A stretch of DNA of 64,000 nt, taken from assembly GCF_001307035.1 (NCBI RefSeq), contig NZ_LKIU01000002.1, positions 603,088 to 667,087 of the forward strand, written 5' to 3'. Positions 1-16,266 of this stretch are shown in pieces (position 1 is the stretch's first letter; every line of letters begins with the position of its first letter). Source of the DNA: Arthrobacter sp. Edens01 (lineage in GTDB: Bacteria > Actinomycetota > Actinomycetes > Actinomycetales > Micrococcaceae). A program made the translations under genes and the position numbers. The notes under the pieces were generated by a model that worked only from the letters and a program-made list of their open reading frames with translations, was not told the DNA's origin and did not search any database.

Positions 1-52
1 GGAAGACCTCCTGGCGGCTGGCGCAGCGGATCTGACCGAGCTGGCATCCTAA
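1..52 (+). CDS. hemC: Hydroxymethylbilane synthase, C-terminal end (partial)
   Basis: The window opens inside a reading frame (codons from base 2) that ends in TAA at 50-52. It encodes only about 16 residues, ending EDLLAAGAADLTELAS. The identity is inferred mainly from position: hemD starts 14 bp later and hemB-hemL follow, the usual actinobacterial order hemC-hemD-hemB-hemL. Sixteen residues cannot prove a family, so the call depends on context. Confidence 0.55.
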   Translation, partial: EDLLAAGAADLTELAS

Positions 53-66
53 GCGGCCGCGCCTAG

Positions 67-969
67 ATGACCGGAGGAAGCAGCAGGGAGAACCGGGCCG
101 CAGGCGGGTCCGGCGGTTCCCTGTCCGGAGCTGACGTGGTGCTGCTGCGCAGTCCCGGCCGCGCAGGCCCCATGACCCGCGAACTTCGTTCCCGGGGAGC
201 GCGGGTACATCTGATGCCCCTGATCGACTTCCAGCGGCCGGCGGACACCGAACCGGTTTCCGCCGGCCTGCGCAGGCTTGGTGCAGGGGACTTCACCTGG
301 ATTATCTTTACGTCCGCTACGACCGTCGGGGCTCTCTCCCTCGCTGCGGAGGACCTCGGCGGAACCCTGCCCGGCCTGTGCTCCGGCACGCGGGTGGCAG
401 CCGTCGGCAAGGGAACGGCCCGTGCACTCGAAGCGGCCGGCATCTCAACGGACCTGCTTCCCGGCGCGGACCAGTCAGCACGCGGGCTCGCCGCGGCATG
501 GCCGGCGTCGGAAGACGGAGCGAACCGGGTTTTCCTGCCGCAGGCGAACATAGCCGATCCGTTCCTGCGGACCGCGCTGGCTGCCTCCGGCTGGGACGTC
601 TGCACCGTTGCCGCATACGAGACGGTGGACTATCCGGCTCCGGAAGACCGCCGAATCAGCGCCGAGCCGGAGGGCGACCAGGAACTGCTTTCCCCGTCCC
701 GGTACCGTGCCGGCGCAGCGTTCCCGCACGCCGTCGTCGTAACCTCTCCCAGCACCGCCCGGCGGTTCGTCCGCGATGCACTGGTGCCCGGAACCGCCGT
801 GCTCGCAGCCATCGGTGATCCCACGGCCGCCGAACTGCGCGGGCTGGGCCATCCGGCGGCCGCCACGGCAGAGCACCCCACTCCCGCCGGAATCGCCCGT
901 GCCGTGGAAGCGGCGCTGGCAACCATAGATTTCCCACACCCTGACCCGGAAGGCAGAGAACAGCCATGA
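67..969 (+). CDS. hemD: Uroporphyrinogen-III synthase
   Basis: A 300-residue protein that would close and invert ring D of hydroxymethylbilane to make uroporphyrinogen III in the cytoplasm. It has the loose two-lobe HemD pattern: an N-terminal stretch with [13 protein letters not shown], then [15 protein letters not shown] (about residues 76-90), [16 protein letters not shown] (about 111-126), [12 protein letters not shown] and [11 protein letters not shown] near the C-terminus. HemD is weakly conserved, so neighbours carry much of the weight: it lies between the hemC end and hemB. Its stop overlaps the hemB start (ATGA at 966-969), which implies translational coupling. It is slightly longer than many HemD proteins because of a Gly/Ser-rich N-terminal extension and a proline-rich C-terminus. 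Confidence 0.85.
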
Positions 970-1949
970 GCTTCCCCCAGCACCGCCCCCGCCGGCTGCG
1001 GACCACACCGGCCATGCGGCGGATGACCGCCGAATACCGCCTCGATCCGGCCGAACTCGTGCTCCCGGCCTTCATCCGCGAAGGCATCACGGAACCGAAC
1101 CCCATCACCTCGATGCCCGGCGTCGTGCAGCACACCACACAGACGCTCAAACGCGCCGCTGCTGAAGCCGTGGAGCTCGGCGTCGGCGGCATCATGCTCT
1201 TCGGCATCCCCGCTGAGCGAGATGCCGAAGGCAGCGCCGGAACCGATCCCGAAGGCGTGCTGAACAAGGCAATCGCTGACGTGCGTGCTGAAGTCGGCGA
1301 CGACCTGGTGATCATGAGTGACGTCTGCCTGGACGAATTCACCGACCACGGCCACTGCGGTGTGCTCGATTCAAACGGCGTGGTGGACAACGACACCACT
1401 CTTGAAATCTACGGCCGCATGGCAGTGGAGCAGGCCCGCGCCGGAGCGCACGTCCTCGGCCCGTCCGGCATGATGGACGGCCAGGTCGCCGTGATCCGCC
1501 ACGCCCTTGACCGGGCAGGGTTCCAGGACGTCTCAGTCATTGCCTACGCCGCAAAGTACGCGTCGGCGTTCTACGGTCCGTTCCGTGAGGCAGTGGACTC
1601 CCAGCTCAAGGGAGACCGGCGAACCTACCAGATGGACGCAGCCAACCGCCGCGAAGCACTCCTGGAGGTCGAGCTCGACCTCGAAGAGGGCGCAGACATG
1701 GTCATGGTCAAGCCGGCCATGAGCTACCTGGACATCCTCGCGGATGTCGCGGCGATGTCCCCGGTTCCGGTAGCGGCTTACCAGATCTCCGGCGAATACG
1801 CGATGATCGAAGCTGCGGCCGCGAACGGCTGGATCGACCGCCGCCGCGCCATCGAAGAATCCGTCCTCGGCATCAAGCGTGCCGGTGCCAACATCATTCT
1901 CACGTACTGGGCTGCCGAGCTGGCCGCCTGGCTGAAGGAAAGCAAGTAA
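966..1949 (+). CDS. hemB: Delta-aminolevulinic acid dehydratase (porphobilinogen synthase)
   Basis: A 327-residue TIM-barrel enzyme that condenses two 5-aminolevulinate molecules to porphobilinogen. Both Schiff-base lysines are visible: K197 in [13 protein letters not shown] and K249 in [13 protein letters not shown]. The metal loop [14 protein letters not shown] (about 119-132) has Cys121 and Cys131, but Asp where the classical zinc enzyme has its middle Cys, a pattern I recall from other actinobacteria. The start ATG overlaps the hemD stop by 4 bp, and the TAA stop overlaps the hemL start (TAATG at 1947-1951), so hemD-hemB-hemL look translationally coupled. Confidence 0.97.
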
Positions 1950-3265
1950 TGACCCAGACGACCTCCTCCGAAGAGCTCTTTGACCGCGCCCGTGCCCTGA
2001 TGCCCGGCGGCGTGAACTCACCCGTGCGCGCCTTCGGCTCGGTGGGCGGCACCCCGCGCTTCCTGGTTTCCGCCAAGGGCCCGTACGTCACCGACTCCGA
2101 GGGCCGCGAATATGTGGACCTGGTTTGCTCCTGGGGCCCGGCGCTGGTGGGCCACTCCCACCCCGACGTCCTGGCCGCCGTGCATGCCGCAGTTGACCGC
2201 GGACTGTCCTTTGGCGCTTCCACTCCGGCAGAGGCCGAGCTGGCAGCCCTGGTGATGGACCGGGTCAAGCCGGTTGAGCGCCTGCGCATGGTGTCCACCG
2301 GCACCGAAGCCACCATGACAGCCGTGCGCCTGGCCCGGGGATTCACCGGCAGGAACCTGGTTATCAAGTTCGCCGGCTGCTACCACGGCCACCTGGATTC
2401 CCTGCTCGCATCCGCCGGTTCCGGCGTCGCGACCCTGGCGCTGCCCGGCTCCGCCGGCGTTACCGAGGCCACTGCAGCGGAGACGCTGGTGCTGCCCTAC
2501 AACGACGTCGCTGCCGTGGAAGCAGCGTTCGCCGAGCACGGCGCGAACATCGCTGCTGTCATCACCGAGGCGGCCCCCGCGAATATGGGTGTTGTTACCC
2601 CTGCTGAGGGCTTCAACGCCGCGTTGTCCCGAATCACCACGGCCCACGGCGCCCTGCTCATCCTTGACGAAGTCCTCACCGGCTTCCGCACCTCCCCTGC
2701 GGGCTACTGGGGTCTGACCGGCCAGAAGGAAGGCTGGGCTCCGGACCTGTACACCTTCGGCAAGGTCATTGGTGGCGGCATGCCCGTAGCTGCCCTGGGC
2801 GGCCGCGCCGAGGTCATGGACTACCTGGCGCCAATCGGCCCGGTCTACCAGGCCGGCACCCTGTCCGGTAACCCGATCGCCATGGCTGCCGGCGTAGCAA
2901 CGCTGACCGCAGCCACCGCCGAGGTCTATGCGAACATCGACGCACGCTCGGCCCAGCTGTCCCAGGCTGTCTCCGATGCGCTCTCCGCAGAAGGCGTGAA
3001 CCACAGCGTCCAGCGTGCCGGAAACCTGTTCAGCATCGCGTTCGGCAGTGCCGGGAACGGGGTACACAACTACGCTGACGCCCTGGCCCAGGAAGCATTC
3101 CGCTTCAAGCCGTTCTTCCACTCGATGCTTGACTCGGGTGTCTACCTGCCGCCGTCGGTCTTCGAAGCCTGGTTCCTTTCGGGCGCACACGATGACGCCG
3201 CGATGGACCGGATCCTGGCGGCCCTGCCGGCAGCAGCGAAGGCTGCGGCTGCCGCCCAGCCCTAG
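1949..3265 (+). CDS. hemL: Glutamate-1-semialdehyde 2,1-aminomutase
   Basis: A 438-residue class-III PLP aminotransferase-fold enzyme that isomerises glutamate-1-semialdehyde to 5-aminolevulinate in the C5 pathway. The PLP lysine is K272 in [11 protein letters not shown]. The cofactor Asp is D240 in [12 protein letters not shown], and the N-terminal substrate loop [11 protein letters not shown] is present. Its presence means the organism makes ALA from glutamyl-tRNA. It is the last gene of the hem run. Translation likely couples to hemB through the TAATG overlap. An 18-bp gap separates its stop from the long palindrome at 3283-3338. Confidence 0.97.
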
Positions 3266-3282
3266 CGCCCTCCCTCCCGCGT

Positions 3283-3338
3283 CGAGATGACAGAAACTGC
3301 CCGTATCAGCACTGATACGGGCAGTTTCTGCTATCTCG
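3283..3338. repeat. Long palindrome, copy 1 (27-bp arms)
   Basis: Arms 3283-3309 and 3312-3338 are complementary except for two adjacent positions, with a 2-base loop. The core is CAGAAACTGCCCGTATC and its reverse complement. It sits between the convergent ends of hemL (plus) and the ABC permease (minus), so it may act as a two-way transcription stop. There is no T-run after either arm. A near-identical copy lies at 5169-5225, so it may belong to a dispersed repeat family. Confidence 0.85.
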
Positions 3339-3347
3339 GTGAAGTGC

Positions 3348-4166
3348 CTAGCCCAGGATGTCCCGGCGGTTCAGCGCCCACACCGCCAGCCCCGTGAAAA
3401 GGATGCAGGCAGCGGCGAGCAGTCCCAGACCGGGTAAGTCGAAGCCATCCGCCAGAGGGTCGTTCCGGTAGGCCCCGGAATAAGGCGAGAAGTTCCGCAG
3501 CCAGTCCAGGTCCGAGTTCTGGTTCGCAAGCGCGTTCATGACGTAACCCGCTGCAGCCACCCCGGCGGCGGTACCCAAGGCCACGGTCCGGCGGCCGGTG
3601 AGGGCACCTGCTGCCATCGCGATGCTGCCGGACAGATAACCCAGTCCAAGCCACGCTGCCTCCACTGCCGCCACGTTTGCGGCGTCCAGGCCAAGCTCGG
3701 AGGGGCCGCTGAGGGCAAGCACCACTACCGCCGTCGCCACAGCGAACCAGAGGAGCCTCACCAGGATCCCCAGCGCTGACTCCACGGCATACCGGACCCT
3801 GCCGACGCCATGGGAAAGGACCAGCTCCAGCCGCCCGGATTCTTCGGCGCCTGCTATTGCCGTGCTTCCCCAGGAAACCGCAGCCGCAGTGATGAGGACG
3901 AACCCCAGCAGCCCGAAGAACGTTGCCTGGACGTACCCCGGACCGGAGAGGATGTCCTCGTAGCCCAGGGCATTCACCAGCTCGGGAGGAAGCGAGCTGA
4001 TCAGGCTGCGCATGTCGGCGCCGTTCATGGAGGGGTAGAGCGGCAGGTAGAGCAGCAGCACGGCGGCAAGGGCCGCGGTCCAGATGAGGGTCGAGCGCCA
4101 TGAATCGATGACCGCCCTGCGGAAGACCGGCAGCGGTTTTGGCGTGGAGATCATCGGCGGGCTCAT
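3348..4166 (-). CDS. ABC-2 type transporter permease subunit
   Basis: A 272-residue integral membrane protein with about six hydrophobic segments, for example IWTAALAAVLLLYLPLY, FFGLLGFVLITAAAV and LGLLAAACILFTGLAVWAL. The motif GAEESGRLELVLSHGV after the second segment is typical of ABC-2 exporters, where it lies in the cytoplasmic loop. It would form the membrane channel for the ATPase encoded just upstream, whose stop overlaps this start by 4 bp (ATGA). The substrate cannot be read from sequence; lipids, drugs or peptides are all possible for this family. The gene pair lies between two copies of the same palindrome. Confidence 0.82.
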   Translation of the reverse strand: MSPPMISTPKPLPVFRRAVIDSWRSTLIWTAALAAVLLLYLPLYPSMNGADMRSLISSLPPELVNALGYEDILSGPGYVQATFFGLLGFVLITAAAVSWGSTAIAGAEESGRLELVLSHGVGRVRYAVESALGILVRLLWFAVATAVVVLALSGPSELGLDAANVAAVEAAWLGLGYLSGSIAMAAGALTGRRTVALGTAAGVAAAGYVMNALANQNSDLDWLRNFSPYSGAYRNDPLADGFDLPGLGLLAAACILFTGLAVWALNRRDILG

Positions 4167-5107
4167 TCCGGACCCTTTCGAATGTCCCCGGGAGCGGCGT
4201 CGGGCCCGCCGTACAGCTGCAGCACTGATTCCTCGAGGTCAGGTTCTTCCACTGCAAGGTCCAGTATCCGGTGCCGTGCGAGCACCCTGATGAAGGCGTC
4301 AACCCCGCCGTCCAGCGTGCCCCGGACACGGGCAGTTCCATCCTGCCACGTGACGGTTCCCTGCAGTCCCGCAGCAGCGAGTTCGTCTTCCAGCACCGGG
4401 CCGGCCCCGCCAGCGGCTGCCAGCGAAGCCCTTACATGACGCAGTCGGTTTAGGCGCAGGGAGGCTACGTCCCCCTGCGCCACCACTTTGCCCAGCGAGA
4501 GGACGGCAACCTGGTCAGCGCTTTGCTGGATTTCGCTGAGGACGTGGGAGCTGAGCAGGACGGTGCGGCCTGCAGCGCGTGCCTCGGCGAGCATTTCCAG
4601 GAACTCGCGCTGGACCAGCGGATCGAGTCCGCTGGTGGGCTCGTCAAGGACCAACAGGTCCGGGTCATGCATAAAGGCCTGCACCAGGCCCAGCTTCTGC
4701 CGGTTGCCCTTGGACAGGGTTCGAACCGGCCGGGAAAGGTCCAGACCCAGCCGCTCAGCGAGTGTTTCAACGCGTCCGGCAGGAACCGGTGAGCTGATCT
4801 GCGCGAAGTGTTCCAGCAGTGTCCGGCCCCGGGCCCGGCCGTTGAGCCGGAGGTCTCCGGGAACGTAGCCGATTCGGCGGCGCAGGGCGGGTCCGCCGGA
4901 CCGTGGCGGAACCCCCAGGACGAGGGCCTGGCCCGACGACGGCCGGATGATGTCCAGCAGCATCCGCAGGGTTGTGGTCTTGCCGGAACCGTTGGGGCCG
5001 ATCAGCCCGAAGACACATCCAGGCTGGACACTCAGGTCCAGTGAATCCACGGCCGTGCGGGACCCGTAGCGCTTGGTCAGCGCCCGGGTTTCTATGACCG
5101 GCGGCAT
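4163..5107 (-). CDS. ABC transporter ATP-binding protein (exporter type)
   Basis: A 314-residue ABC ATPase. Walker A is GPNGSGKT (37-44), the signature is LSKGNRQKL (131-139), Walker B is LLVLDEP (151-157) with the D-loop SGLDP, and the switch His lies in LLSSHVLSEIQ. A C-terminal tail of roughly 90 residues after the nucleotide-binding domain resembles the accessory domain of drug/lantibiotic-type exporters. The start is supported by a GGGAGG ribosome-binding site about 6 bases upstream. It is the first gene of a two-gene minus-strand operon with the permease; together they would form a homodimeric ATPase plus permease exporter of unknown substrate. Confidence 0.9.
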   Translation of the reverse strand: MPPVIETRALTKRYGSRTAVDSLDLSVQPGCVFGLIGPNGSGKTTTLRMLLDIIRPSSGQALVLGVPPRSGGPALRRRIGYVPGDLRLNGRARGRTLLEHFAQISSPVPAGRVETLAERLGLDLSRPVRTLSKGNRQKLGLVQAFMHDPDLLVLDEPTSGLDPLVQREFLEMLAEARAAGRTVLLSSHVLSEIQQSADQVAVLSLGKVVAQGDVASLRLNRLRHVRASLAAAGGAGPVLEDELAAAGLQGTVTWQDGTARVRGTLDGGVDAFIRVLARHRILDLAVEEPDLEESVLQLYGGPDAAPGDIRKGPE

Positions 5108-5168
5108 TCGGCACCTCCCACTCGGCAGTGGACATTATGCTAGCTCCGCTCCGGGCCGGTTGAACTCC

Positions 5169-5225
5169 CGAGATAGCAGAAACTGCCCGTATCCGGGATG
5201 GATACGGGCAGTTTCTGCTATCTCG
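5169..5225. repeat. Long palindrome, copy 2 (perfect 26-bp arms)
   Basis: Arms 5169-5194 and 5200-5225 are perfect reverse complements around a 5-base loop (GGGAT). The core is the same CAGAAACTGCCCGTATC as in copy 1 at 3283-3338. It lies 19 bp beyond the metQ stop on the minus strand and upstream of the ABC ATPase start, so it could insulate the met operon from the ABC operon. It has no T-run, so it is not a textbook intrinsic terminator. Confidence 0.9.
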
Positions 5226-5244
5226 ATGAGGCGGCGAACCGGGC

Positions 5245-6084
5245 TTAGAACGCCGGGGTCACGTCACCGTTGGGCCACTTCTCCTCGATGAAGGACTTCA
5301 CCTCGGGGGAGTGGAGGAGCTCTTCGAGCTTGTCGATCCGGGCGTCCTTGCTGCCGGCCTTCCAAGCCAGCAGGTTGGCGTACGGATTGTTGTCGAGGGA
5401 CTCCACCAGCAGGGCGTCCTCCGTCTTCAAACCGGCGTCGAGGATGTAGTTGCCGTTGATGATTGCAAGATCCACGGTGGGATCGGAGAGATCGTTGACC
5501 AGCAGTTCAGCCTGGTTCTCGACGAAATCCAGGTTCTTCGGGTTCTGCTCGTCGTTCAGCGAGATCACGGAAGCGTCCGCGGGGACATCCTTGAGCAGGC
5601 CGGCGTCCTCAAGCAGGGCAAGGGCCCGGGCCTGGTTGGATGGATCATTGGTGATGGCTACGCGGGCACCTTCTTCGACGTCGGAGATGTCCTGGTGCTT
5701 TTTGCTGAAGACCGCGTAGGGCTCAATGTGGATGCCTTCCCCGCGCTCAAAGTCGTATCCGCGTTCCTCGATCTGTGCGTCCAGGTAGGCGCTGTGCTGG
5801 AAGTAGTTGGCGTCGATTGAGCCGTCATCCAGGGAGATATTCGGGGTCACGTAGTCATCGAACGGAACAACTTCGAGTTCCAGTCCGGCATCTGCGGCGA
5901 GGTTGTCGGCCACGTATTCCAGGATGACAGCGTGCGGCTGCGGGCTGGCGCCCACAGTCAAGGAGACCGGATTGGCAGGATCGAGGCTCTCCACAGCGCT
6001 GGAGGAGGATTCAGAACCCCCGCAAGCCGTCAGCGCCAGAGCCGCGGCCACGCCGGTGGCCACGAGTGAAAATGCTTTCCGCAT
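5245..6084 (-). CDS. metQ: MetQ/NlpA-family substrate-binding lipoprotein
   Basis: A 279-residue lipoprotein with a signal peptide and lipobox LALTACGG (Cys21), so it would be anchored outside the membrane. The mature part has the NlpA-family pattern: SLTVGASPQPHAVILEYV, LELEVVPFDDYVTPN, DANYFQHSAYLD, RVAITNDPSNQARAL and DLAIINGNYILDAG. It would capture D/L-methionine or a related compound and deliver it to MetI-MetN, encoded upstream in the same direction. It is separated from metI by 126 bp holding a perfect hairpin (6108-6130), unlike the overlapping metN-metI pair. An AAAGGA site lies about 10 bases before the ATG. Confidence 0.92.
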   Translation of the reverse strand: MRKAFSLVATGVAAALALTACGGSESSSSAVESLDPANPVSLTVGASPQPHAVILEYVADNLAADAGLELEVVPFDDYVTPNISLDDGSIDANYFQHSAYLDAQIEERGYDFERGEGIHIEPYAVFSKKHQDISDVEEGARVAITNDPSNQARALALLEDAGLLKDVPADASVISLNDEQNPKNLDFVENQAELLVNDLSDPTVDLAIINGNYILDAGLKTEDALLVESLDNNPYANLLAWKAGSKDARIDKLEELLHSPEVKSFIEEKWPNGDVTPAF

Positions 6085-6107
6085 TGGATGCGTTTCCTTT
6101 CGAAGGT

Positions 6108-6130
6108 CCGGCCCGGGAACCCCGGGCCGG
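6108..6130 (-). other. Intercistronic hairpin between metI and metQ
   Basis: Perfect 10-bp arms CCGGCCCGGG (6108-6117) and CCCGGGCCGG (6121-6130) with a 3-base loop lie 24 bp upstream of metQ, within the metN-metI-metQ transcription unit. No T-run follows on the minus strand. It could be an RNA-processing or stability element that sets metQ expression separately from metNI. That role is inference; the inverted repeat is direct observation. Confidence 0.6.
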
Positions 6131-6210
6131 CTGTTGTGCAGCTAGCGGCTACTGGCTGCAGGCTCCGGCGGGTGCGCAGGCACCGGCCGGAAAAACTGGG
6201 GTGCGCGGAA

Positions 6211-7011
6211 TCAGACCCGGGTCCGCGCATCGTCCGTTGCCGGGGCTTCCGCTGCCGGAGCATCCGCGGCCGGGACAGCGGGTGCCGCTGCCCGCGAAGG
6301 ACGCCGGCGACGCCGCGTGGTGCCCGCTGCTGAACGGTGGTCGACCCTGCGGGCGGCAAAGTCTCCCGCAAGCTGGATGATCTGGACGATCGCAACGATG
6401 ATGACGATCGTGACGACCATAACGGCCGTGTCGAAGCGCTGGACGCCGTAGTTGTAGGCCAGCCGGCCCAGGCCTCCGCCGCCGATGATGCCTGCCATGG
6501 CTGAGTAGCCCACGAGGGTTACCAGGGTGGTGGTCAGGGCTGCGACCAGTCCGGGAAGGGCCTCCGGCATCAGAACCTTGCGGATAACCTGCATCCGGGT
6601 GGAACCCATGACCAGGGCAGCATCGATCTTCCCGCCTGCCACATCACGCAGGGAGGTCTCCACCAGGCGTGCGAAGAACGGAATAGTGCCGATGCTCAGG
6701 GGCACGCATGCAGCCAGCGGGCCGATCGAGGAACCGGTGACCAGACGGGAGAACGGAATCAGGATCACCATCAGGATCGCGAACGGAATTGAACGCGTGA
6801 TGTTCACAATGATGTCCGAGAGGATCCGGTTGGTAACCGGCATGGGCCGCAGGCCGCCGGGTGCGGAGGTGTGCAGGAAGATTCCCAGTGGCAGCCCGAT
6901 GAGGAGCGTGAAGAAACCGGACACACCAACCATCAGCAGGGTGTCGGCCACGGCCTCGGGCAGTGCCTTGGTGATGCCGGGATTGTTCGCAAGTTCTTCG
7001 AACAGGTTCAT
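6211..7011 (-). CDS. metI: Methionine ABC transporter permease
   Basis: A 266-residue permease with about five membrane segments and the binding-protein-dependent transport signature. The N-terminal half has ITKALPEAVADTLLMVGVSG and FTLLIGLPLGIFLH. The central region has RSIPFAILMVILIPF and IPFFARLVETSLRDV, and the EAA-type loop reads VMGSTRMQVIRKVLMPEALPG. A second signature, GYSAMAGIIGGGGLGRLAYNYG, is characteristic of MetI. The last roughly 35 residues are an Arg then Ala/Pro-rich tail, not part of the fold. Its start overlaps the metN stop by 4 bp. Confidence 0.95.
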   Translation of the reverse strand: MNLFEELANNPGITKALPEAVADTLLMVGVSGFFTLLIGLPLGIFLHTSAPGGLRPMPVTNRILSDIIVNITRSIPFAILMVILIPFSRLVTGSSIGPLAACVPLSIGTIPFFARLVETSLRDVAGGKIDAALVMGSTRMQVIRKVLMPEALPGLVAALTTTLVTLVGYSAMAGIIGGGGLGRLAYNYGVQRFDTAVMVVTIVIIVAIVQIIQLAGDFAARRVDHRSAAGTTRRRRRPSRAAAPAVPAADAPAAEAPATDDARTRV

Positions 7012-7988
7012 GCTGCCACCTCCACTGAAACGCCCTGGCCGGCCAGGTAGTCCTTCACCGCGTCCATATCCGTCCGTTCGTCGAGCTGCACCCGCAGCCT
7101 GCCGAACCGTTCACCGGCGAGAGTCTCGACGCTGCCGGCAAGGACATTGACGTCCGTGTCGAAGCGCCGGGTCAGTCCGGAGAGCACGGGCTCGGTTGCA
7201 TGTTCGCCAACCATGAGCAGCTCCACCACGGGGCCTCCGGGCACGGGAGGAGTTGCGGGAAGGGGAATCAGCGCCTTGGCCAGACGGCCGCCAAGGTGGG
7301 ATGCGACTTCCTGCAGCGGGCCGTGTTCCACGACCCGTCCGGCCTCGAGCAGCGAGACCGAGTCGCAGATCCGCTTCACTACGTTCATCTCGTGCGTAAT
7401 GATCAGCACGGTCAGTCCCAGCCGGTTGGTCAGCTCGGAAATCAGGTCCAGGATTTCATCCGTTGTCCGCGGGTCCAGGGCAGAGGTTGGTTCATCGCAG
7501 AGCAGCACGTCCGGCTGTGCCGCCAGGGCGCGGGCTATGCCGACCCGCTGTTTCTGGCCGCCGGAGAGCTGGGCCGGGTAAGCGCCGGCGAAGTCCTGCA
7601 GGCCTACGAGCGAAAGCAGTTCGGCAACCCGGGCCTCGGTGTCCTTCCGGCTGGTGCCGACAAGCTCCAGCGGGTGCGCGATGTTGGCTGCCGCCGTGCG
7701 TGAATCCATGAGGTTCGCGTGCTGGAACACCATGCCGATGCGGCGGCGTGCCAGCCGGATCTCGGAGTCCTTGACGTTGGTCAGCTCCCGGCCGTCAATC
7801 GTGACAGTTCCCGACGTCGGGCGGTCCAGCAGCGTCAGGCAGCGCACCAGGGTCGACTTTCCGGCACCGGAATGGCCGATGATGCCGTGGATCGATCCTT
7901 TGGGCACGCTCATGCTGACCCCGTCCAGGGCCACCACGTCACGGGAGCCTTGGCGGTATACCTTGCGCAGGTCGGTAACTGTGATCAT
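7008..7988 (-). CDS. metN: Methionine ABC transporter ATP-binding protein
   Basis: A 326-residue ATPase. Walker A is GHSGAGKS (38-45), the signature LSGGQKQRVG (141-150) and Walker B VLLCDEP (161-167). The C-terminal region (about 245-325, VVELLMVGEHATEPVLSGLTRRF... GRLRVQL) matches the NIL regulatory domain that lets methionine inhibit MetN, so transport is probably feedback-controlled. It is the first gene of metN-metI-metQ, read on the minus strand. I looked for a SAM riboswitch in its upstream region and did not recognise one; a candidate operator is noted at 8138-8160. Confidence 0.95.
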   Translation of the reverse strand: MITVTDLRKVYRQGSRDVVALDGVSMSVPKGSIHGIIGHSGAGKSTLVRCLTLLDRPTSGTVTIDGRELTNVKDSEIRLARRRIGMVFQHANLMDSRTAAANIAHPLELVGTSRKDTEARVAELLSLVGLQDFAGAYPAQLSGGQKQRVGIARALAAQPDVLLCDEPTSALDPRTTDEILDLISELTNRLGLTVLIITHEMNVVKRICDSVSLLEAGRVVEHGPLQEVASHLGGRLAKALIPLPATPPVPGGPVVELLMVGEHATEPVLSGLTRRFDTDVNVLAGSVETLAGERFGRLRVQLDERTDMDAVKDYLAGQGVSVEVAA

Positions 7989-8137
7989 TCATCCTCAATG
8001 TCTGCGTACTTCGTAGGAGGTCGTGCAGGGGGAAAACAGCCCGGAGGAAGGGACGCCAACGGCCCGGCTGTGTGGGAAGTGCCTGCCAATCGCGTGACAC
8101 GGGGCGCGTACGGCCGCGCCCGGGCGCCATCAGCGCC

Positions 8138-8160
8138 TGACACTGTCTTAAGTATGTCAA
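8138..8160 (-). promoter_or_regulatory. Candidate promoter/operator upstream of metN
   Basis: On the minus strand TTGACA (8160-8155) matches a -35 box, but no good -10 box follows at 16-18 bp. The same segment forms an interrupted inverted repeat, TGACA ... TGTCA, around CTTAAG, about 150 bp upstream of metN. This could be a repressor site controlling methionine uptake. Evidence is weak. Confidence 0.25.
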
Positions 8161-8260
8161 TGCTACGCGGGCGGAGGTCCCATACCGAAATCCGGAATGT
8201 GGGGAAGGAACCTGCTGTGCGGGGGATTCCGGGGTATGGACGTGCTGCCCGGGACGTTTA

Positions 8261-9103
8261 CTAGCTGGGGGAAAGTTCCATCACCAGCTGGCCACCGTCC
8301 TCCTCCGCCAGCACCGGGACTTCCAGTGCCGGTACAGGGACTTCCGGTCCCGGAACAGCAACAGCGGCGGCCGGGACGGCGGAGGCCGACAATGCAGCAG
8401 GAACGGAAACAGCGAACGGTGCGGGCTTGAGCGGCCAGGTGCCGTCGATGACGGCCTCCGGATCGCGGCGGCGCAGGTAGGCCTGGAAACTCGCTGCCTG
8501 TTCTGCCGCCCACTGAACCTGCAGGGAGTGCAGCACCGCTGCTTCCTGTGCCATGACGGGGAAGGCATTCGCCACCGCGGCTCCGACGCTGAGGGTTGCC
8601 AGCACGTCTGCGGCAGAGGTGTGCGCGTTCTCGAAAGCCACCCCGTAGTGCTCTGCCATGGCGGTCAGGGTGCGCTTTCCGCGGCGGAAGCGGTCTGCCT
8701 GCTTATCCATGATGTAGGGATCGATGACAGGATGCGGCACCGGAGCCGTAAGCCCGTGGCGTTCGGCTTCGCGCGCCAGGACAGTGAAGTCGTAGGCGGC
8801 ATTGAACGCCAGTACCGGGATGCCGGCGGCAAAGGTGTCCGCCAGGACCGCGCTGATCTGGCGGACTGCTTCGGCGGCACTGATTCCGTCGCGGCGGGCC
8901 GTTTCGGTGCTCACCCCGTGGATCGCTGCTGCTTCGGCGGGGATTTCGACGCCGGGGTCAACCAGCCATTCATGGTGGGCCATGATGCTCCCGCTGCCGT
9001 CCACCAGGATGATGGATGCGGTGACAATACGTGCCTGCTGGGGATCCCGTCCCGTGGTTTCCAGGTCGAAGGATGCTCGGGGAAGTTCGTGCCAGCTCAA
9101 CAT
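8261..9103 (-). CDS. DEDDh-family 3'-5' exonuclease (DNA polymerase III epsilon-like)
   Basis: A 280-residue protein with all four exonuclease blocks: SFDLETTG (Asp13, Glu15), IHGVSTETARRDG, VLAFNAAYDFTVL, and the terminal HTSAADVLAT providing His and Asp. It would remove nucleotides from 3' ends; family members act in proofreading or repair. The start chosen (MLSWHELPRASFDLETTG) has GGTAGG upstream and matches the usual N-terminus of the family. An ATG 30 bp further upstream (9133) is possible but adds a poorly conserved leader. The last roughly 55 residues are Ala/Val/Pro-rich. It is divergent from the DNA-repair genes that follow, so it may be functionally linked with them. Confidence 0.88.
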   Translation of the reverse strand: MLSWHELPRASFDLETTGRDPQQARIVTASIILVDGSGSIMAHHEWLVDPGVEIPAEAAAIHGVSTETARRDGISAAEAVRQISAVLADTFAAGIPVLAFNAAYDFTVLAREAERHGLTAPVPHPVIDPYIMDKQADRFRRGKRTLTAMAEHYGVAFENAHTSAADVLATLSVGAAVANAFPVMAQEAAVLHSLQVQWAAEQAASFQAYLRRRDPEAVIDGTWPLKPAPFAVSVPAALSASAVPAAAVAVPGPEVPVPALEVPVLAEEDGGQLVMELSPS

Positions 9104-9173
9104 GTATTCAAACCTACCGGCGGGCACGGACATTACCCGGAATCAGCGCGCCGGGCATGGCTAAGCTGGAATC

Positions 9174-9590
9174 ATGCGGGAGGACTTTAGGGAAGCAGTG
9201 CTGGCCGTGGCCGCGCTGATTCCGCCTGGCCGGGTGCTGGCCTACGGGGATATTGCCGAACTGCTGGATGCCGGCGGGCCGCGGCAGGTTGGGTCAGTGT
9301 TGTCCAGGGAAGGAGGTTCGGTCCCCTGGTGGCGGGTGATCCGATCATCAGGTGAGCCCCCTGCCTGCCACGGACGGCGTGCATGGACGCATTACCTGCG
9401 GGAGGAAACTCCACTGCGGGGCAGCGTGGAACCGGACGGGTCCGGTTACCGGGTCCGGATCAGCCAGGCACGGTGGCAGCCCGACGACGCCGGCTGGGAA
9501 ACACTTGATGCGCTGCGGAACCGCCTGGCTGCCGGCGCATCGCAGGCAAAGCAGGGAATGTCACCGGGACATGGTGAAGTGGAGGTATGA
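9174..9590 (+). CDS. Alkyltransferase-like (ATL/MGMT-fold) DNA-binding protein
   Basis: A 138-residue protein matching the DNA-binding domain of O6-alkylguanine transferases: IPPGRVLAYGDIAELL, GGPRQVGSVLS (Arg37 in the position of the arginine finger) and VPWWRVIRSSGEPP. The catalytic PCHR motif is PWWR here (residues 51-54), so the acceptor cysteine is replaced by Trp. The protein cannot take up an alkyl group. ATL proteins bind O6-alkylguanine and hand it to nucleotide excision repair. Its stop overlaps the adnA start by 4 bp, suggesting co-translation with the helicase-nuclease pair. Confidence 0.9.
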   Translation: MREDFREAVLAVAALIPPGRVLAYGDIAELLDAGGPRQVGSVLSREGGSVPWWRVIRSSGEPPACHGRRAWTHYLREETPLRGSVEPDGSGYRVRISQARWQPDDAGWETLDALRNRLAAGASQAKQGMSPGHGEVEV

Positions 9591-12500
9591 GCATCAACCT
9601 GCGGCTAGTTCCGCCCGCCGCGGCCGGCCAGGCCGCACCGCAGCTTAGCCCGGACCAGCGTGCCGCCGTCGAGCGCCCGGCCGGGAGCGGGCCCCTCCTT
9701 GTACTGGGCGCACCCGGAACCGGAAAGTCCACGGTCCTGGTGGAAACCGCCGTCGAGCGCATCACACACGGCGGATTGGATCCTGCCGGCGTGCTTCTGC
9801 TGGCACCGTCGCGGCTGGCAGCTGCCGCGCTCCGTGATTCGCTGTCCGCCCGGCTGGAGCGAACCATCAGCGCCGCTCCGGCACGGACCTGGGCGTCCTA
9901 CGCGTTCGATGTCATCCGCCGTGCCAAGGCCGAGGGCCTAATGCCGCACGTTACCCGCGCCCCGAAACTGCTGTCCGGTGCGGAACAGGACGTCATCATC
10001 AAGGAGCTGCTCGCCGGGCACGGACAGAACGGCGTGCCGCAGCTGCCCTGGCCCGACTCACTGTCCCTGGCACTGGGCACGAGGGGGTTCCGCCAGGAGA
10101 TCAGGCAGCTGTTTGACCGGGTGATTGAACTCGGGCTCGCTCCCGAACAGCTGGAGGACTTTGGCCGGCGGTACGGGAGGCAAGACTGGATTGCTGCAGC
10201 GCATCTGTACGCCGAATACCGCGATGTCCTGGATCTGCGTATGCCGGAGGCCTTCGACCCCGCCGGGATCATCACTACGGCAACGGACATTCTGGCCTCC
10301 GAGCCCGGGTTCCTGGCGGCAGAGCACGAGCGGCTCCAGCTGATCCTCGTTGATGACCTCCAGGAAGCCAACGGCGCGATCCACCGCCTCCTGGGGCTAC
10401 TGGCCCGGGACCGCGAAGCCGTGGTCACTGCCAGCCCGGACACCGTGGTCCAGGGGTTCCGCGGCGCCCGCCCGGATCTGCTCGGTGACCTGAAGAACGT
10501 GCTGGGTTCCGATCTCCAGACCGCGGTGCTGCAGACCCAGCACCGGCTGGCTGAACCCGTCGCCGCCGCCTGGCACCGCTGCGCGTCACGCATTTCCGTG
10601 GTGAAGGGACTCGCCGCTGCGCGGACCCCCGGCGGCCGCAGCGGAAATGATGGAACCGGTCCGGTGTCGGCGACGGCCCACGTGGTGGATTCGCCCATGC
10701 ATGAGCAGCGTTACGTAGCCCAGCGGATCCTGGAAGCGCAGTTGCTGGACGGCCGGCAGCTGGAGGACATCGCCGTGATTGTGCGCACCGGAGGCCAGCT
10801 GGCACGGATCCAGCGCTACCTCATCAGCCAGGGGATCGAGGTGCGTGTGCCGGTGGCTGAAAAGGCTGTTCGCGACGAAGCCGCCGTCCGGCCCCTGCTC
10901 GATGCCTACGGCGTTGTGCTGGACCAGGACCTGCTGACTCCGGAACTGGCGGTCTCGCTGCTCACTTCACGGATCGGCGGGGCAGGATCGCTGGACCTGC
11001 GCAGGCTGCGGCAGGCGCTGCGCCGTGAAGAACTTCGTGCGGGCGGCGGGCGCAGTTCCGACGCCCTGCTGGTGGAGGCACTGCTGGACCCGCTTTCCGA
11101 CTCCGGGCTGGCGCTCGCCGGACTGGGCTGGGAGGCGGCGCCCGCCAAACGGCTGGCAGCTATGCTGCGTGCCGGCCGCGAAGCAGCTGGGCAGCCCGGT
11201 GCCAGTGCCGAGACTGTCCTGTGGGCTTTGTGGTCGACGTCGGGGTGGTCCAAAAAGTGGGCGGAAGCCGCCCTCTCGGGAGGATCGGCGGGAATCCGGG
11301 CCGACCGGGACCTGGATGCGATCATGGCACTGTTCCAGACTGCTGAGCGCTACGTCGACCAGCTTCCGGGCTCCACACCGGCACAGTTCCTGGACTACCT
11401 CACCAGTTCCGAACTGCCCATGGACACCCTCGCAGCCAGGGCACAGCAGCGTGACGCGGTTGAACTGCTGACCCCGGCCAGCGCCGCAGGGCGCGAATGG
11501 CCCGTGGTGATCGTCGCCGGTATCCAGGAGGGTGTCTGGCCCAACCTCCGTCTGCGCGGGGAACTGCTCGGCAGCGGGGACCTGGTGGCAGCCGTCGAGT
11601 TCCCCGACACCGACTACCGCTCCGCCCGCAACCCGCAGGCGCTGATGCAGGCGACCCGCTACGACGAACTGCGCAGCTTCTCCACTGCGATCTCCCGCGC
11701 CCGGGATGTGCTGGTCTGCACGGCCGTGGCTTCGGATGACGAGCAGCCCTCCCAGTTCCTGGACCTGGTGGACCCGCTGCCCGACGGCGTCGGAGTTCGC
11801 CCCCGCACAGAGGTCCTGCGCCCGCTGACCCTGCGCTCCCTCGTCGCGGAACTGAGGGCCCATGCCCAGCAGGCCGAAACCGATCCGGAGACAGCGCGCG
11901 AAGCGGCTTTCCACCTCGGCCGGATGCTCCGGCACCCGGTCCGTGTGCCCGGAGCTGCGCCGGCGGAGTGGTGGGGTCTCCGTCCGCTGTCCAGCACCGG
12001 ACCGATCCTGCCGCCCCAGGCACCCATTCCGGTCTCGCCTTCCAAGGTGGACGCCGTGATGAAATCACCCCTGAGCTGGTTTGTTTCTGCCGTGGGCGGG
12101 GAACAGGCCACCGATTTTGCCCGTTCGCTTGGCACACTGGTTCACCAGATCGCCCAGGAGATGCCCGATGCCACCGGCACCGAATACACGCAGGAGCTTC
12201 GCAGGCGCTGGCCTTCCCTTGGCATGAAGGACAACTGGGAAGGGAAGACAGATCTCAAGCGGGCCGAAACCATGGTGGGCAAGCTGGCGGAATACGTAAT
12301 CAAGATGCGCCAGGGCGGCAGGTCCCTGGTTGCCGTGGAACAGGACTTCGAAGCGGCAATTCCGGTGGAAGTCCGAAGCGCAGTCCGGACGGCCCTGCTG
12401 CGCGGCCAGATCGACCGGCTGGAGAAGGACGCCGAAGGAAGGCTGTACATCGTGGATCTGAAGACCGGCAGGAGTGCGCCGAAGAAGGCGGACCTCGAAG

Positions 12501-12811
12501 GGCACCCCCAGCTGGCTTCTTACCAGGAGGCAGTTCGGGAAGGCGCGCTTGACGAGGGTCCACGGGTCCCGGGCGGCGCTGCCCTGGTGCAGCTGGGCAC
12601 CAGTTCCAAGGGCGTCGCTGTGCAGGAGCAGCCGCCGCTGGGCCCTGATGACACCAGTGCGCTGGAAATGATCCAGCAGGCCGCGGCGCTTATGTCTGAT
12701 GAGAAGTTCGACACCGTTCATGACCCCGCGCGCAGCGGACACGGCGGACACGGCTGCCGGCTGCCGGAGATCTGCCCGCTGTGCACTGAGGGAAAGCAGG
12801 TCACGGAATGA
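9587..12811 (+). CDS. adnA: AdnA-type UvrD-like helicase with RecB-like nuclease domain
   Basis: A 1074-residue protein with an N-terminal UvrD-family motor and a C-terminal PD-(D/E)XK nuclease. Walker A is GAPGTGKS (41-48). Motif II reads LILVDDLQEANG, a departure from the usual DEFQD. Later helicase motifs include QTQHRLAEPVA and TPASAAGREWPVVIVAG. The nuclease site is GQIDRLEKDAEGRLYIVDLKTG followed by QLASYQ. The C-terminus ends with three cysteines spaced Cx5Cx2C. AdnA pairs with AdnB, encoded next with a 4-bp overlap, to resect double-strand DNA ends in actinobacteria. Gene order (AdnA then AdnB) matches the mycobacterial pair. Confidence 0.88.
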   Translation: MSINLRLVPPAAAGQAAPQLSPDQRAAVERPAGSGPLLVLGAPGTGKSTVLVETAVERITHGGLDPAGVLLLAPSRLAAAALRDSLSARLERTISAAPARTWASYAFDVIRRAKAEGLMPHVTRAPKLLSGAEQDVIIKELLAGHGQNGVPQLPWPDSLSLALGTRGFRQEIRQLFDRVIELGLAPEQLEDFGRRYGRQDWIAAAHLYAEYRDVLDLRMPEAFDPAGIITTATDILASEPGFLAAEHERLQLILVDDLQEANGAIHRLLGLLARDREAVVTASPDTVVQGFRGARPDLLGDLKNVLGSDLQTAVLQTQHRLAEPVAAAWHRCASRISVVKGLAAARTPGGRSGNDGTGPVSATAHVVDSPMHEQRYVAQRILEAQLLDGRQLEDIAVIVRTGGQLARIQRYLISQGIEVRVPVAEKAVRDEAAVRPLLDAYGVVLDQDLLTPELAVSLLTSRIGGAGSLDLRRLRQALRREELRAGGGRSSDALLVEALLDPLSDSGLALAGLGWEAAPAKRLAAMLRAGREAAGQPGASAETVLWALWSTSGWSKKWAEAALSGGSAGIRADRDLDAIMALFQTAERYVDQLPGSTPAQFLDYLTSSELPMDTLAARAQQRDAVELLTPASAAGREWPVVIVAGIQEGVWPNLRLRGELLGSGDLVAAVEFPDTDYRSARNPQALMQATRYDELRSFSTAISRARDVLVCTAVASDDEQPSQFLDLVDPLPDGVGVRPRTEVLRPLTLRSLVAELRAHAQQAETDPETAREAAFHLGRMLRHPVRVPGAAPAEWWGLRPLSSTGPILPPQAPIPVSPSKVDAVMKSPLSWFVSAVGGEQATDFARSLGTLVHQIAQEMPDATGTEYTQELRRRWPSLGMKDNWEGKTDLKRAETMVGKLAEYVIKMRQGGRSLVAVEQDFEAAIPVEVRSAVRTALLRGQIDRLEKDAEGRLYIVDLKTGRSAPKKADLEGHPQLASYQEAVREGALDEGPRVPGGAALVQLGTSSKGVAVQEQPPLGPDDTSALEMIQQAAALMSDEKFDTVHDPARSGHGGHGCRLPEICPLCTEGKQVTE

Positions 12812-15800
12812 GTGTCGACGTGAGTGATGACGTGGAGCAGAACACGCCGTTCCAGCCGCAGTACTCTGCCAGGAGACTGGCGGAGATGCTGCACGACGGC
12901 GATCCGCAGGACGTCCAGTACCCCACCGAGGCCCAGCAGCAGATCATTGAGGGTCCGTTGGAACCGCTGCTGGTGGTGGCCGGAGCAGGGTCTGGAAAGA
13001 CCAAGACCATGGCCGACCGCGTGGTCTGGCTGGTGGCGAACAAGCTGGTTGCACCGGAACAGATCCTCGGCGTTACCTTTACCCGCAAGGCGGCCGGGGA
13101 ACTGGCCAGCCGTATCCGCGGACGGCTGCGGCTGCTGGAACGCAAACTGGGGGAGGACACCGGTGACCATGACCCGCAGCTCGAAGCTGCGGTCTCCACC
13201 TACCACTCCTATGCCAACGGCATCGTCAATGACTATGGCCTGCGCATCGGCGTCGAACGTGACTCCGTAATGCTCGGAGGTGCCCAGTCCTGGCAGCTGG
13301 CCAACGAGGTCGTGGAGGCCTACACCGGGGACTATGAGCATTTCACCGCCGCTAAATCCACTCTGGTCACTTCGGTGCTGCAGATGGCTTCGGAATGCTC
13401 TGAGCACCTAAAGACGCCGGCGAGGGTCCGTGCCGAGCTCGAGAAGCATGTGGCCGGGGTTCTGGCCCTGCCGTACCAGGCAGGCAAGCCCAAGCAGCCC
13501 ACCCAGGCGGCAAAGGACCTGGTCAACAAGCTCCGCACCCGTATCTCGGTTACCGAGCTGGTAGAGGCTTACCAGCGCGCCAAGACTGAGCGCAGGCAGC
13601 TGGACTTCGGTGACCTCGTGGCGCTCGCCGCCCGCATTGCCGAAGAGATCCCCGAAGCACGCGAGATGGAACGTGCCAAGTATAAAGTGGTGCTGCTGGA
13701 CGAGTTCCAGGACACCTCCCACGCCCAAATGGTCTTGTTCTCCACGCTCTTCGGCAACGGCACTCCGGTAACGGCGGTGGGCGATCCGCACCAGTCGATC
13801 TACGGTTTCCGCGGGGCATCCGCGGGTCAGCTGGGCACTTTCCGGGAGCATTTCCCGCGGTTCAATTCCGACGGCAGCCGTTCGCTGGCCGGCGTCGCCA
13901 ACCTGTCCGTGGCCTGGCGGAACTCAACCTCCATCCTCGCTGCTGCCAATGCAGTCTCCGGAGCCCTGAACGCACCGGTGCCGTGGCTGAAGAACAACCG
14001 GCCGCTGGACGTCCCGGAACTGCAGGCCAAGCCAAAAGCGCGCGTCGGCGATGTATTCCTGGGCCGCTACCTGAGCGAGAAAACCGTCACCCTGCCGGAC
14101 GGTACCGTGAGCGTGGGGGAAGCCGAAGCGCTGGCCACCGAGATCGCCCGGGTCCGCACCCAGTGGTTTAGGCACCCCAGCCATGAAACCGATGGCCGGG
14201 GGAACGCGCTGCCGCCCACCGTGGCTGTGCTGTGCCGCGGCAAGAAGCAGTTCGACCCGATCCGCCGGGCGCTGGAAGACCGGGGTATCCCCGTGCAGAT
14301 CGTAGGCCTTGGCGGGCTGCTTTCAACCCCGGAGATCGTGGACCTGCTCGCGGTCCTGAGGGTCCTCAGCGATCCGGGACGCTCTGACTCAATGCTCCGC
14401 ATCCTTGCCGGGGCGCGCTGGCGCATTGGTCCGGCGGACCTGATGGCGCTGGCTGACTGGTCACGGCACCTTGTCCGGGTCCGGGAACGGGCTGTGCGGG
14501 TCCAGGATCTCTCGGATGTACACGGGCCTGATGAAACCGGCGCCGCCGTCGTCGAAACCGATCTCGCGGAAGCCGGAAGCCTGGTGGAAGCCGTGGACTA
14601 CCTGCCCAAACCGGGATGGGTCTCCAGCGCCGGACGCACGCTGACAGAGGAAGGGCTGGCCCGGCTGAGCGCTCTGCGCGATGAACTGCGGCAGCTGCGC
14701 GGGTACGTCGGGGAAGACCTGACCACCCTGATCGGCGAGGTGGAGCGCCGCATCCTGCTGGACATCGAGGTAGCGGCCAAGCCGGGTATCAGCATCCACG
14801 AATCCAGGCGGAACCTGGACGCGTTCATCGACGCAGCCGCCACATTCAGTGCCTCCGCGGACCGTGTGGACCTCGCGGCCTTCCTGGCCTGGCTGGAAGT
14901 TGCCGACGAGGAGGAGAACGGCCTGCCGGTCACCGCGCTGGAGACCTCCCGCGAAGCAGTCCAGCTGCTGACAGTCCACGCGTCCAAAGGCCTGGAGTGG
15001 GATGTAGTGGCCGTACCGGGTCTCTCGGAGGGCCAGTTCCCGAACGTGAAGGATTCACGCTGGAGCAGCGGAAACTCCGCCATCCCGTGGAACCTGCGCG
15101 GAGACGGACCGGACCTGCCGCAGTGGGACTGGGAACAGCCGGACCAGAAATCCTGGCTGGAAGCCGAGAAACAGTTTGCCGAAGATGCGCGCGGCCATGC
15201 GGAGCGCGAAGAGCGGCGGCTGGCCTACGTGGCTTTCACCCGTGCCAAGGACATCCTGTTCTGCACCTCAAGTGCCTGGGGCGGCGGCCGGACCAAGCCG
15301 ACACCGGCGTCGCGCTATCAGCTGGAACTCTATGAACTCGGTAAGGGCGGTGCACCCGGCTACCATCTTCTCTCCTGGCTGGAACCGGAGGACGAAGGGG
15401 ACGAGAACCCGGCGAACGCGGCAGTGGAGCGGGCCAGCTGGCCCAAGGACCCGCTGCCTGCGGAGAGGCGTGCGGCCATGGAAGCCGCCGCCGAAGCTGT
15501 GCTCGCCGCTGCCCGCGAATCTGTTCCGCCGGCCGGGTCCCGGGACAAGGGCGCTGTTTCGGAGACCGGGAACGACGTCTTCGAACCCCGGCGCTGGGGG
15601 CGGGACGTAGAACTGGTCCTTGCCCGGCACCGTGCGCCGGATGAGGTAATGGAAGTTGAACTGCCCGCCCACATCTCGGCCTCCATGCTCGTGGACCTGC
15701 AGGATGATCCTGAGGCAGTGACCCGACAGCTGCGCCGTCCTGTTCCGCGGGAACCGGGGATGGCAGCCCGCAAGGGAACAGCGTTCCACGCCTGGATTGA

Positions 15801-16266
15801 GGAGTACTTCGGCCGCAGCGGCATGCTCGACATTGACGAGTATCCCGGGGCCGCAGATGCCTACGTTGACGAGGCTTACCAGCTCGAGGACATGGTGGCC
15901 ACGTTTGAAGCTTCTGAGTGGGCACCGCGGACGCCGGCTTACATAGAGGTTCCGGTTGAGACACGGGTCAACTCGGTCGTCGTCCGGGGACGGATCGATG
16001 CCGTGTTCCAGGATGAGGACGGCGGCTGGGACCTGATCGACTGGAAGACGGGGGCTCCGCCTTCGAAGGAGAAGCTGGCCGTCCGCTCGGTGCAGTTGGC
16101 GGTTTACCGGCTGGCCTGGGCAAGACTGAAGGGCGTTCCCCTGGAAACGGTCCGTGCGGCGTTCTACTACGTTGCGGCAGACAAAGTGATTCGTCCGCAC
16201 AACCTTCTTGGGGAAGAGGAGCTGGAACGGATCATCCTCGATGCCGCAGGCGGTCCGGATGCCTAA
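12808..16266 (+). CDS. adnB: AdnB-type UvrD-like helicase with RecB-like nuclease domain
   Basis: A 1152-residue UvrD-like helicase-nuclease. Walker A is AGAGSGKT (58-65), motif Ic YHSYANGIV, motif II VVLLDEFQDTSH (about 293-304), motif III AVGDPHQSIYGFRGAS, motif V TVHASKGLEWDVV and motif VI RRLAYVAFTRAK. The C-terminal nuclease has GRIDAVFQDEDGGWDLIDWKTG and QLAVYRLAWA. It would be the main translocating motor of the AdnAB heterodimer acting on broken DNA ends. It starts inside the adnA stop. A perfect hairpin at 16319-16358 follows its stop and faces a convergent ABC operon. Confidence 0.92.
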   Translation: MSVDVSDDVEQNTPFQPQYSARRLAEMLHDGDPQDVQYPTEAQQQIIEGPLEPLLVVAGAGSGKTKTMADRVVWLVANKLVAPEQILGVTFTRKAAGELASRIRGRLRLLERKLGEDTGDHDPQLEAAVSTYHSYANGIVNDYGLRIGVERDSVMLGGAQSWQLANEVVEAYTGDYEHFTAAKSTLVTSVLQMASECSEHLKTPARVRAELEKHVAGVLALPYQAGKPKQPTQAAKDLVNKLRTRISVTELVEAYQRAKTERRQLDFGDLVALAARIAEEIPEAREMERAKYKVVLLDEFQDTSHAQMVLFSTLFGNGTPVTAVGDPHQSIYGFRGASAGQLGTFREHFPRFNSDGSRSLAGVANLSVAWRNSTSILAAANAVSGALNAPVPWLKNNRPLDVPELQAKPKARVGDVFLGRYLSEKTVTLPDGTVSVGEAEALATEIARVRTQWFRHPSHETDGRGNALPPTVAVLCRGKKQFDPIRRALEDRGIPVQIVGLGGLLSTPEIVDLLAVLRVLSDPGRSDSMLRILAGARWRIGPADLMALADWSRHLVRVRERAVRVQDLSDVHGPDETGAAVVETDLAEAGSLVEAVDYLPKPGWVSSAGRTLTEEGLARLSALRDELRQLRGYVGEDLTTLIGEVERRILLDIEVAAKPGISIHESRRNLDAFIDAAATFSASADRVDLAAFLAWLEVADEEENGLPVTALETSREAVQLLTVHASKGLEWDVVAVPGLSEGQFPNVKDSRWSSGNSAIPWNLRGDGPDLPQWDWEQPDQKSWLEAEKQFAEDARGHAEREERRLAYVAFTRAKDILFCTSSAWGGGRTKPTPASRYQLELYELGKGGAPGYHLLSWLEPEDEGDENPANAAVERASWPKDPLPAERRAAMEAAAEAVLAAARESVPPAGSRDKGAVSETGNDVFEPRRWGRDVELVLARHRAPDEVMEVELPAHISASMLVDLQDDPEAVTRQLRRPVPREPGMAARKGTAFHAWIEEYFGRSGMLDIDEYPGAADAYVDEAYQLEDMVATFEASEWAPRTPAYIEVPVETRVNSVVVRGRIDAVFQDEDGGWDLIDWKTGAPPSKEKLAVRSVQLAVYRLAWARLKGVPLETVRAAFYYVAADKVIRPHNLLGEEELERIILDAAGGPDA

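Follow-up and report, generated by a model that had tools for sequence, protein, structure and literature searches.

Two long palindromes in the window, the whole 64,000-nt stretch of Arthrobacter sp. Edens01 DNA analyzed here, are members of a dispersed family, some 60 palindromes in all, that lie mostly behind gene ends in this genome. We consider it probable, from position, stem strength and comparison with relatives, that these palindromes act as transcription terminators or 3′-end-forming hairpins, often serving two convergent genes at once.

Two palindromes and their family

The two palindromes, their core segments and the neighboring genes are as follows.

1949–3265, plus strand: hemL, glutamate-1-semialdehyde 2,1-aminomutase; open reading frame with a TIGR00713 match above cut-off, its 3′ end facing palindrome 1
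3283–3338, no strand assigned: family palindrome 1, subfamily I; 27-nt arms, between the convergent ends of hemL and the ABC permease gene
3291–3303, plus strand: left-arm core of palindrome 1, CAGAAACTGCCCG, partner of 3318–3330; from the sequence and comparison of species copies
3318–3330, minus strand: right-arm core of palindrome 1; same basis
3348–4166, minus strand: putative ABC permease-like membrane protein; open reading frame without an NCBIfam match, role suggested by the adjoining ATPase gene and hydrophobic sequence
4163–5107, minus strand: ABC transporter ATPase, DrrA-like; open reading frame, match under the curated cut-off
5169–5225, no strand assigned: family palindrome 2, subfamily I; 26-nt perfect arms, behind the metQ stop codon at a distance of 19 nt
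5177–5189, plus strand: left-arm core of palindrome 2; from the sequence and comparison of species copies
5205–5217, minus strand: right-arm core of palindrome 2; same basis
5245–6084, minus strand: MetQ-like methionine-binding lipoprotein; open reading frame, match under the curated cut-off, 3′ end facing palindrome 2

A first-pass annotation had described two hairpins with 26–27-bp arms, one of them perfect, and this holds: the arms of palindrome 1 (3283–3309 and 3312–3338, 27 nt) are 93% complementary and those of palindrome 2 (5169–5194 and 5200–5225, 26 nt) 100%. The arms, called identical at the time, are near-identical, differing at the dinucleotide after CGAGAT. The 17-mer CAGAAACTGCCCGTATC occurs four times in the window (up to three mismatches allowed, all four exact) against 0.09 expected, a count reached in none of 100 shuffles. 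As described, the hairpins lie on both sides of the ABC operon; not stressed earlier was that each also sits directly behind the end of another gene, since palindrome 1 falls between the convergent stop codons of hemL (end 3265) and the permease gene (stop 3348), and palindrome 2 between the ATPase start (5107) and the metQ stop (5245). Among the matches listed, which may omit very near records, the nearest named relatives of HemL come from Arthrobacter and related Micrococcaceae (80–83%).

Predicted RNA folds reach −44 kcal/mol for palindrome 1, alike on both strands, and −54 to −56 kcal/mol for palindrome 2. The reported lack of a T-run was borne out: no run of four or more occurs in or directly 3′ of the 3′ arms of either window palindrome, and the longest, TTT, lies within the stem. 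A simple terminator scan of positions 1–16000, whose matches did not exceed the shuffled number, called neither palindrome. In an Rfam search of positions 1–12000, nothing rose above the gathering cut-off; microRNA and Chloroflexus-1 matches lay far below it and were taken for chance hairpin matches.

The genome (G000; 3.64 Mb in 10 contigs) contains 32 sites with the exact core pair of type I and none with a reversed control pattern. With 27 copies as its seed, a covariance model gave 114 strand matches at E ≤ 0.01, corresponding to 58 sites; as the best 150 of 1,017 first-look candidates were scored, this site list may be incomplete, and high counts are lower bounds. The exact core pair of type II marks eight sites, two of them (C2:39876 and C6:109039) outside the 58. 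This brings the total to about 60, 40 of which have an exact core pair of type I or II. The genome-wide count proposed in the first-pass annotation thus strongly supports the dispersed palindromic family suggested there. By core type, the 58 model sites divide into 33 of type I, nine of type II with four II-like, five of type III and seven others. About nine of them score below 45 bits; hairpins of family-poor relatives reach 43.5 bits, so these weakest sites, and low counts elsewhere, may include ordinary hairpins.

Family palindromes are about 56 nt long, with symmetric consensus ends, CATCGAGAT/ATCTCGATG, as read by eye over the 58 sites. TTT is present in all 34 subfamily I copies, where the T-tract is itself paired and extends to four or more in only two; in subfamily II it is found in four of 12 copies and absent from eight. 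Runs of at least four T occur in 4 of 58 family palindromes versus 22 of 46 other hairpins in relatives. In the literature searched, no description of the present family appeared.

Gene-end positions and sequence constraint

Thirty of the 58 sites lie in convergent gaps, 23 between genes of one direction, four in gaps called divergent and one at a contig end, so that 54 face a gene 3′ end. The palindrome edge is 0–30 nt from the facing stop codon at 48 of the 58; three more overlap a called gene and three are farther away. Both stops are within 0–30 nt at 22 of the 30 convergent sites. Among window gaps of at least 60 nt, 2 of 20 are convergent versus 30 of 57 family sites (Fisher p ~0.001), one of the two window gaps probably being that of palindrome 1 itself. 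Genes were called with a simple codon-usage caller, of whose first nine window calls eight matched an open reading frame at both ends and one differed in its start. The 20 nt on the gene side before the palindromes contain 45% C and 17–18% G; C is almost as abundant on the far side (41% C, 22% G), and the sequence preceding other hairpins in relatives has 39% C and 25% G, which makes C-richness weak evidence for Rho. At one site (L094, C2, palindrome near 749965), an ordinary hairpin carrying runs of A and T shares a convergent gap with a type II palindrome ~200 nt further on.

The stems vary in a paired manner. In the seed alignment, 88.8% of cells pair, compared with at most 40.6% after sliding; both-side changes occur at 13 of 29 pairs (shuffled mean 8.5), and 57 cells carry both-side pair changes against 25.3 in shuffles, none of 500 shuffles reaching 57. 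Seed rows were mostly exact-core choices (25 of 27), so core invariance in this alignment is partly built in. A cleaner comparison uses copies located through their neighboring genes, six behind hemL and five behind metQ, a small sample related by descent. Between species, these copies differ pairwise, per arm, by 0–3% in the 13-nt core, 0–7% in the outer hexamer and 0–10% in the four inner bases, and by 33–65% in the paired dinucleotide at positions 7–8. This contrast between core and dinucleotide is more than pairing alone explains. A near-invariant core adjoining a variable paired dinucleotide suggests that at the window sites the sequence itself may be recognized.

Sites and operon in related genomes

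Using 140-nt flank pieces, 26 of the 58 sites were mapped into five relatives and examined in four. In the relatives G006, G017 and G024, 72 mapped site–genome pairs comprised 46 with a non-family hairpin scoring at least 30, one with a family member, 15 with a weaker hairpin and 10 with none; in six of the 72, the called gap was shorter than 40 nt, perhaps through errors in gene calling. In G017, the core pattern picked out one subfamily II copy that the covariance model did not report. G023 has a family member at 16 of 23 mapped sites; compared with G000, the core is II instead of I at eight of the 16 and I instead of III at one. In G022, 20 of the 26 sites have a listed core, and at 14 of these 20 no G000 copy matches better than the ortholog; as the G022 cores came from exact-pattern listings, this comparison is biased toward agreement. 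Core type differs between G022 and G000 at two sites. At one (L076; G000 C1:73910, G022 C3:479516), the inner stem is kept under a changed core, the G022 copy being a hybrid whose core belongs to subfamily I and whose inner stem resembles the one in the subfamily II copy that G000 has there. With orthologs agreeing at most of the sites compared and core switches at few, copies appear to be mostly inherited in place, with the core occasionally changed as a unit. Family and ordinary hairpins may have been exchanged in either direction; a tree of 28 genomes gave no clear branching order among G023, four other family-rich and three family-poor genomes. In a separate case, a G017 flank (C8:110460–110599) is 99% identical to G000 (G022, 98%; G006, G024 and G023, 85–87%) yet the hairpin there lies outside the family and the next gene has another orientation; its near-identity may be a sign of recent exchange.

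Within the genus, covariance-model matches at E ≤ 0.01 were obtained in 20 of 29 genomes, the weak ones perhaps representing ordinary hairpins, and copy number differs strongly among relatives (high counts are again lower bounds, the best 150 candidates per genome having been scored). Exact core II pairs occur in five of the 29 genomes (G000, G005, G022, G023 and G040), and exact core I pairs in G000, G005, G022 and G023, with one each in G004 and G006; G040 lay outside the core I search. Core type III (CAGAARGTGC and close variants) accounts for all 14 sites read in G003, G004, G007 and G011, which are placed elsewhere in the genus. Across the taxonomic family, matches at E ≤ 1e-7 were found in at least 36 of 245 genomes and at least 12 of 32 genera, with the best 20 candidates per genome scored. 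From other genera, 15 sequences were read: all are long palindromes containing core-like words, and 13 lie no more than 50 nt away from the stop codon that faces them. Because the model had picked them, part of the likeness is built in. A core variant of one other genus (g34) is exact at three and two sites in two of four genomes and at none in the other two, at best a small family there.

The regions behind hemL were compared in 20 of the 28 other genus genomes and in our own. The ABC pair lies between hemL and metQ in G000 and in seven relatives with HemL identities of 95–96%. In all 13 other genus members examined, hemL directly faces metQ across one ordinary bidirectional hairpin, with a T-run of at least four in 12 of the 13 (by eye). 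The first-pass annotation had asked whether relatives without the ABC genes carry one palindrome: they do carry one hairpin, and it is of the ordinary type. The eight ABC genomes group together in the tree of 28 genomes (100/100), as do G006, G017 and G024 (100/100). Among the genomes examined, the operon is clade-specific, reflecting clade-specific gain or loss of an exporter. Within the clade, six of eight genomes have a palindrome at position 1 and five of eight at position 2. An extra plus-strand gene of ~945 nt lies between the ABC ATPase gene and metQ in G006 (C10, L249), and hemL of G014 matches in two pieces (C1:1114520–1115775), through a broken gene or an assembly fault.

That the palindromes are boundary repeats of a transferable ABC module, as suggested earlier, would agree with the operon being flanked by both in five of the eight genomes that have it and absent between hemL and metQ in the other 13 members. 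G017 and G024, however, keep the ABC genes without either palindrome, the finding named beforehand as speaking against a mobile module, and G006 has the first only; the other 56 model sites lie elsewhere in the genome, and most copies flank unrelated genes. Because the ABC genes occur with or without palindromes in the clade, the palindromes are not operon boundaries. We regard the module as largely refuted and extremely improbable.

Probable termination and alternative readings

Termination or 3′-end formation is the reading best supported by where the palindromes lie, their symmetry, their strong stems and their interchange with other hairpins: family members would mostly be bidirectional terminators, or 3′-end-forming hairpins, that lack a long T-run. 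At palindrome 1 the hemL and ABC operon transcripts would both end, and at palindrome 2 the metQ transcript, ahead of the ABC operon. The RNA of each strand is predicted to form a 26–27-bp hairpin directly after the stop codon. In subfamily I, TTTCTG follows the GC-rich inner stem and pairs with the A-rich side, which gives each strand a short U-tract. Release could then proceed by intrinsic termination with a weak U-tract or, alternatively, through Rho, in which case the hairpin would mark the 3′ end and shield it; the fixed core may add a further, sequence-specific recognition step. The insulation or termination function proposed in the first-pass annotation is supported by the gene-end position (54 of 58 sites, 30 of 58 convergent) and by hairpins at the same places in relatives (46 of 72). 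Against it count the scarcity of T-runs of at least four (4 of 58), the absence of TTT from 8 of 12 subfamily II copies, the 25 of 72 mapped sites in relatives without a family member or a hairpin scoring at least 30, the four of 58 gaps called divergent and a constraint on core and outer hexamer that exceeds the need of a plain hairpin terminator. The family agrees only in part with canonical intrinsic termination. It is possible, and we offer it tentatively, that the terminators are recognized by their sequence: a protein dedicated to this task, or RNA polymerase responding in a special way, would read the core and outer hexamer, cassettes would be exchanged with ordinary terminators genome-wide and lineages would settle on their own core (I, II and III in the genus, perhaps more in other genera).

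Two other accounts are less likely. A selfish or mobile palindromic repeat of the REP or MITE kind, inserting or tolerated mainly between gene ends and terminating transcripts only as a by-product, would explain some 60 similar copies beside unrelated genes, the strong copy-number differences between relatives and the variation of positions and core types between species. REP elements are tied to the Y1_Tnp (RAYT) transposase, however, and none was found in 29 genus genomes, with the control positive in 5 of 14. Matching 2-nt flanks are in excess (18 of 58 sites, where shuffles average 12 and 2 of 500 are as high), but 14 of the 18 are AT, which is self-complementary and as a slightly longer palindrome would give, and matches of 3 nt or more, as expected of target-site duplications, do not exceed chance at the 58 sites. 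Orthologous copies mostly stay put, as the G022–G000 comparison indicates, and 46 of 72 mapped sites in relatives hold other hairpins rather than being empty, 25 having none that scores at least 30. Phage and plasmid records, queried with one palindrome each, gave no match, nor did plasmid records with the ABC region. A single match to the core-pair pattern among viral contigs, more closely spaced and lacking the outer hexamer, was taken as unrelated. Lone arms were not found, all 61 arms (up to two mismatches) lying within paired model sites. We therefore judge mobility unlikely; the family may have spread by conversion between copies or by another mechanism. Less probable still is a DNA-level protein-binding site, for a roadblock, nucleoid or chromosome-organizing protein, that lies between genes by chance and whose RNA hairpins are irrelevant. 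The same site on both arms and a conserved core and outer hexamer with a free dinucleotide between them would suit such binding, but the preference for gene 3′ ends with near avoidance of divergent gaps, the other hairpins found at corresponding sites in relatives and the paired stem changes speak against it, though dyad-symmetric sites could also yield the last.

Taken as terminators, the palindromes can be set beside several known systems. Bidirectional intrinsic (Rho-independent) terminators resemble them in a hairpin just after two convergent stop codons, with an A-rich 5′ and a T-rich 3′ side; they are what relatives have between hemL and metQ, and passages on Bacillus cereus describe them for convergent genes (PMC5381666). 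The present family differs in its rare T-runs, longer stems and a fixed core common to unrelated genes. U-lacking (‘I-shaped’) terminators and actinobacterial 3′ ends share a strong hairpin near the stop codon and no poly-U tail. Such terminators and a dominant Rho route are described for mycobacteria (PMC12288462), where two references cited in that paper disagree on whether the polymerase does without a U-tract, and in Streptomyces clavuligerus 3′ ends have been described whose stems are strong but contain or precede few U (PMC8269248). Unlike the family here, U-lacking terminators are described, in the portions considered, without a sequence common to sites. Paired DNA uptake sequences of Neisseria and Pasteurellaceae, in part of one account (PMC1852404), are likewise short conserved inverted pairs forming terminator hairpins at many genes; those described there number ~1,000 or more and also occur unpaired, in contrast to ~60 sites with every arm paired. 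REP elements and stem-loop families, as portrayed in sections of two papers, are also dispersed intergenic palindromes, mostly at convergent or unidirectional genes (PMC3733652, PMC2267715). REPs are given in one of these as 20–40 bp, most with GTAG or CGTC at one end (PMC3733652); neither motif was seen at the palindrome ends of the 58 sites, by eye, and the missing Y1_Tnp genes further separate them from our family.

In this genome a fixed core recurs at dozens of gene ends, and relatives carry hairpins of other kinds, or with another core, at the corresponding positions. Terminators are generally regarded as free in sequence provided that the hairpin is kept. The family amounts to a natural experiment, both on how transcription may end in GC-rich Actinobacteria when clear U-tracts are lacking and on the way one regulatory element can come to be uniform throughout a genome.
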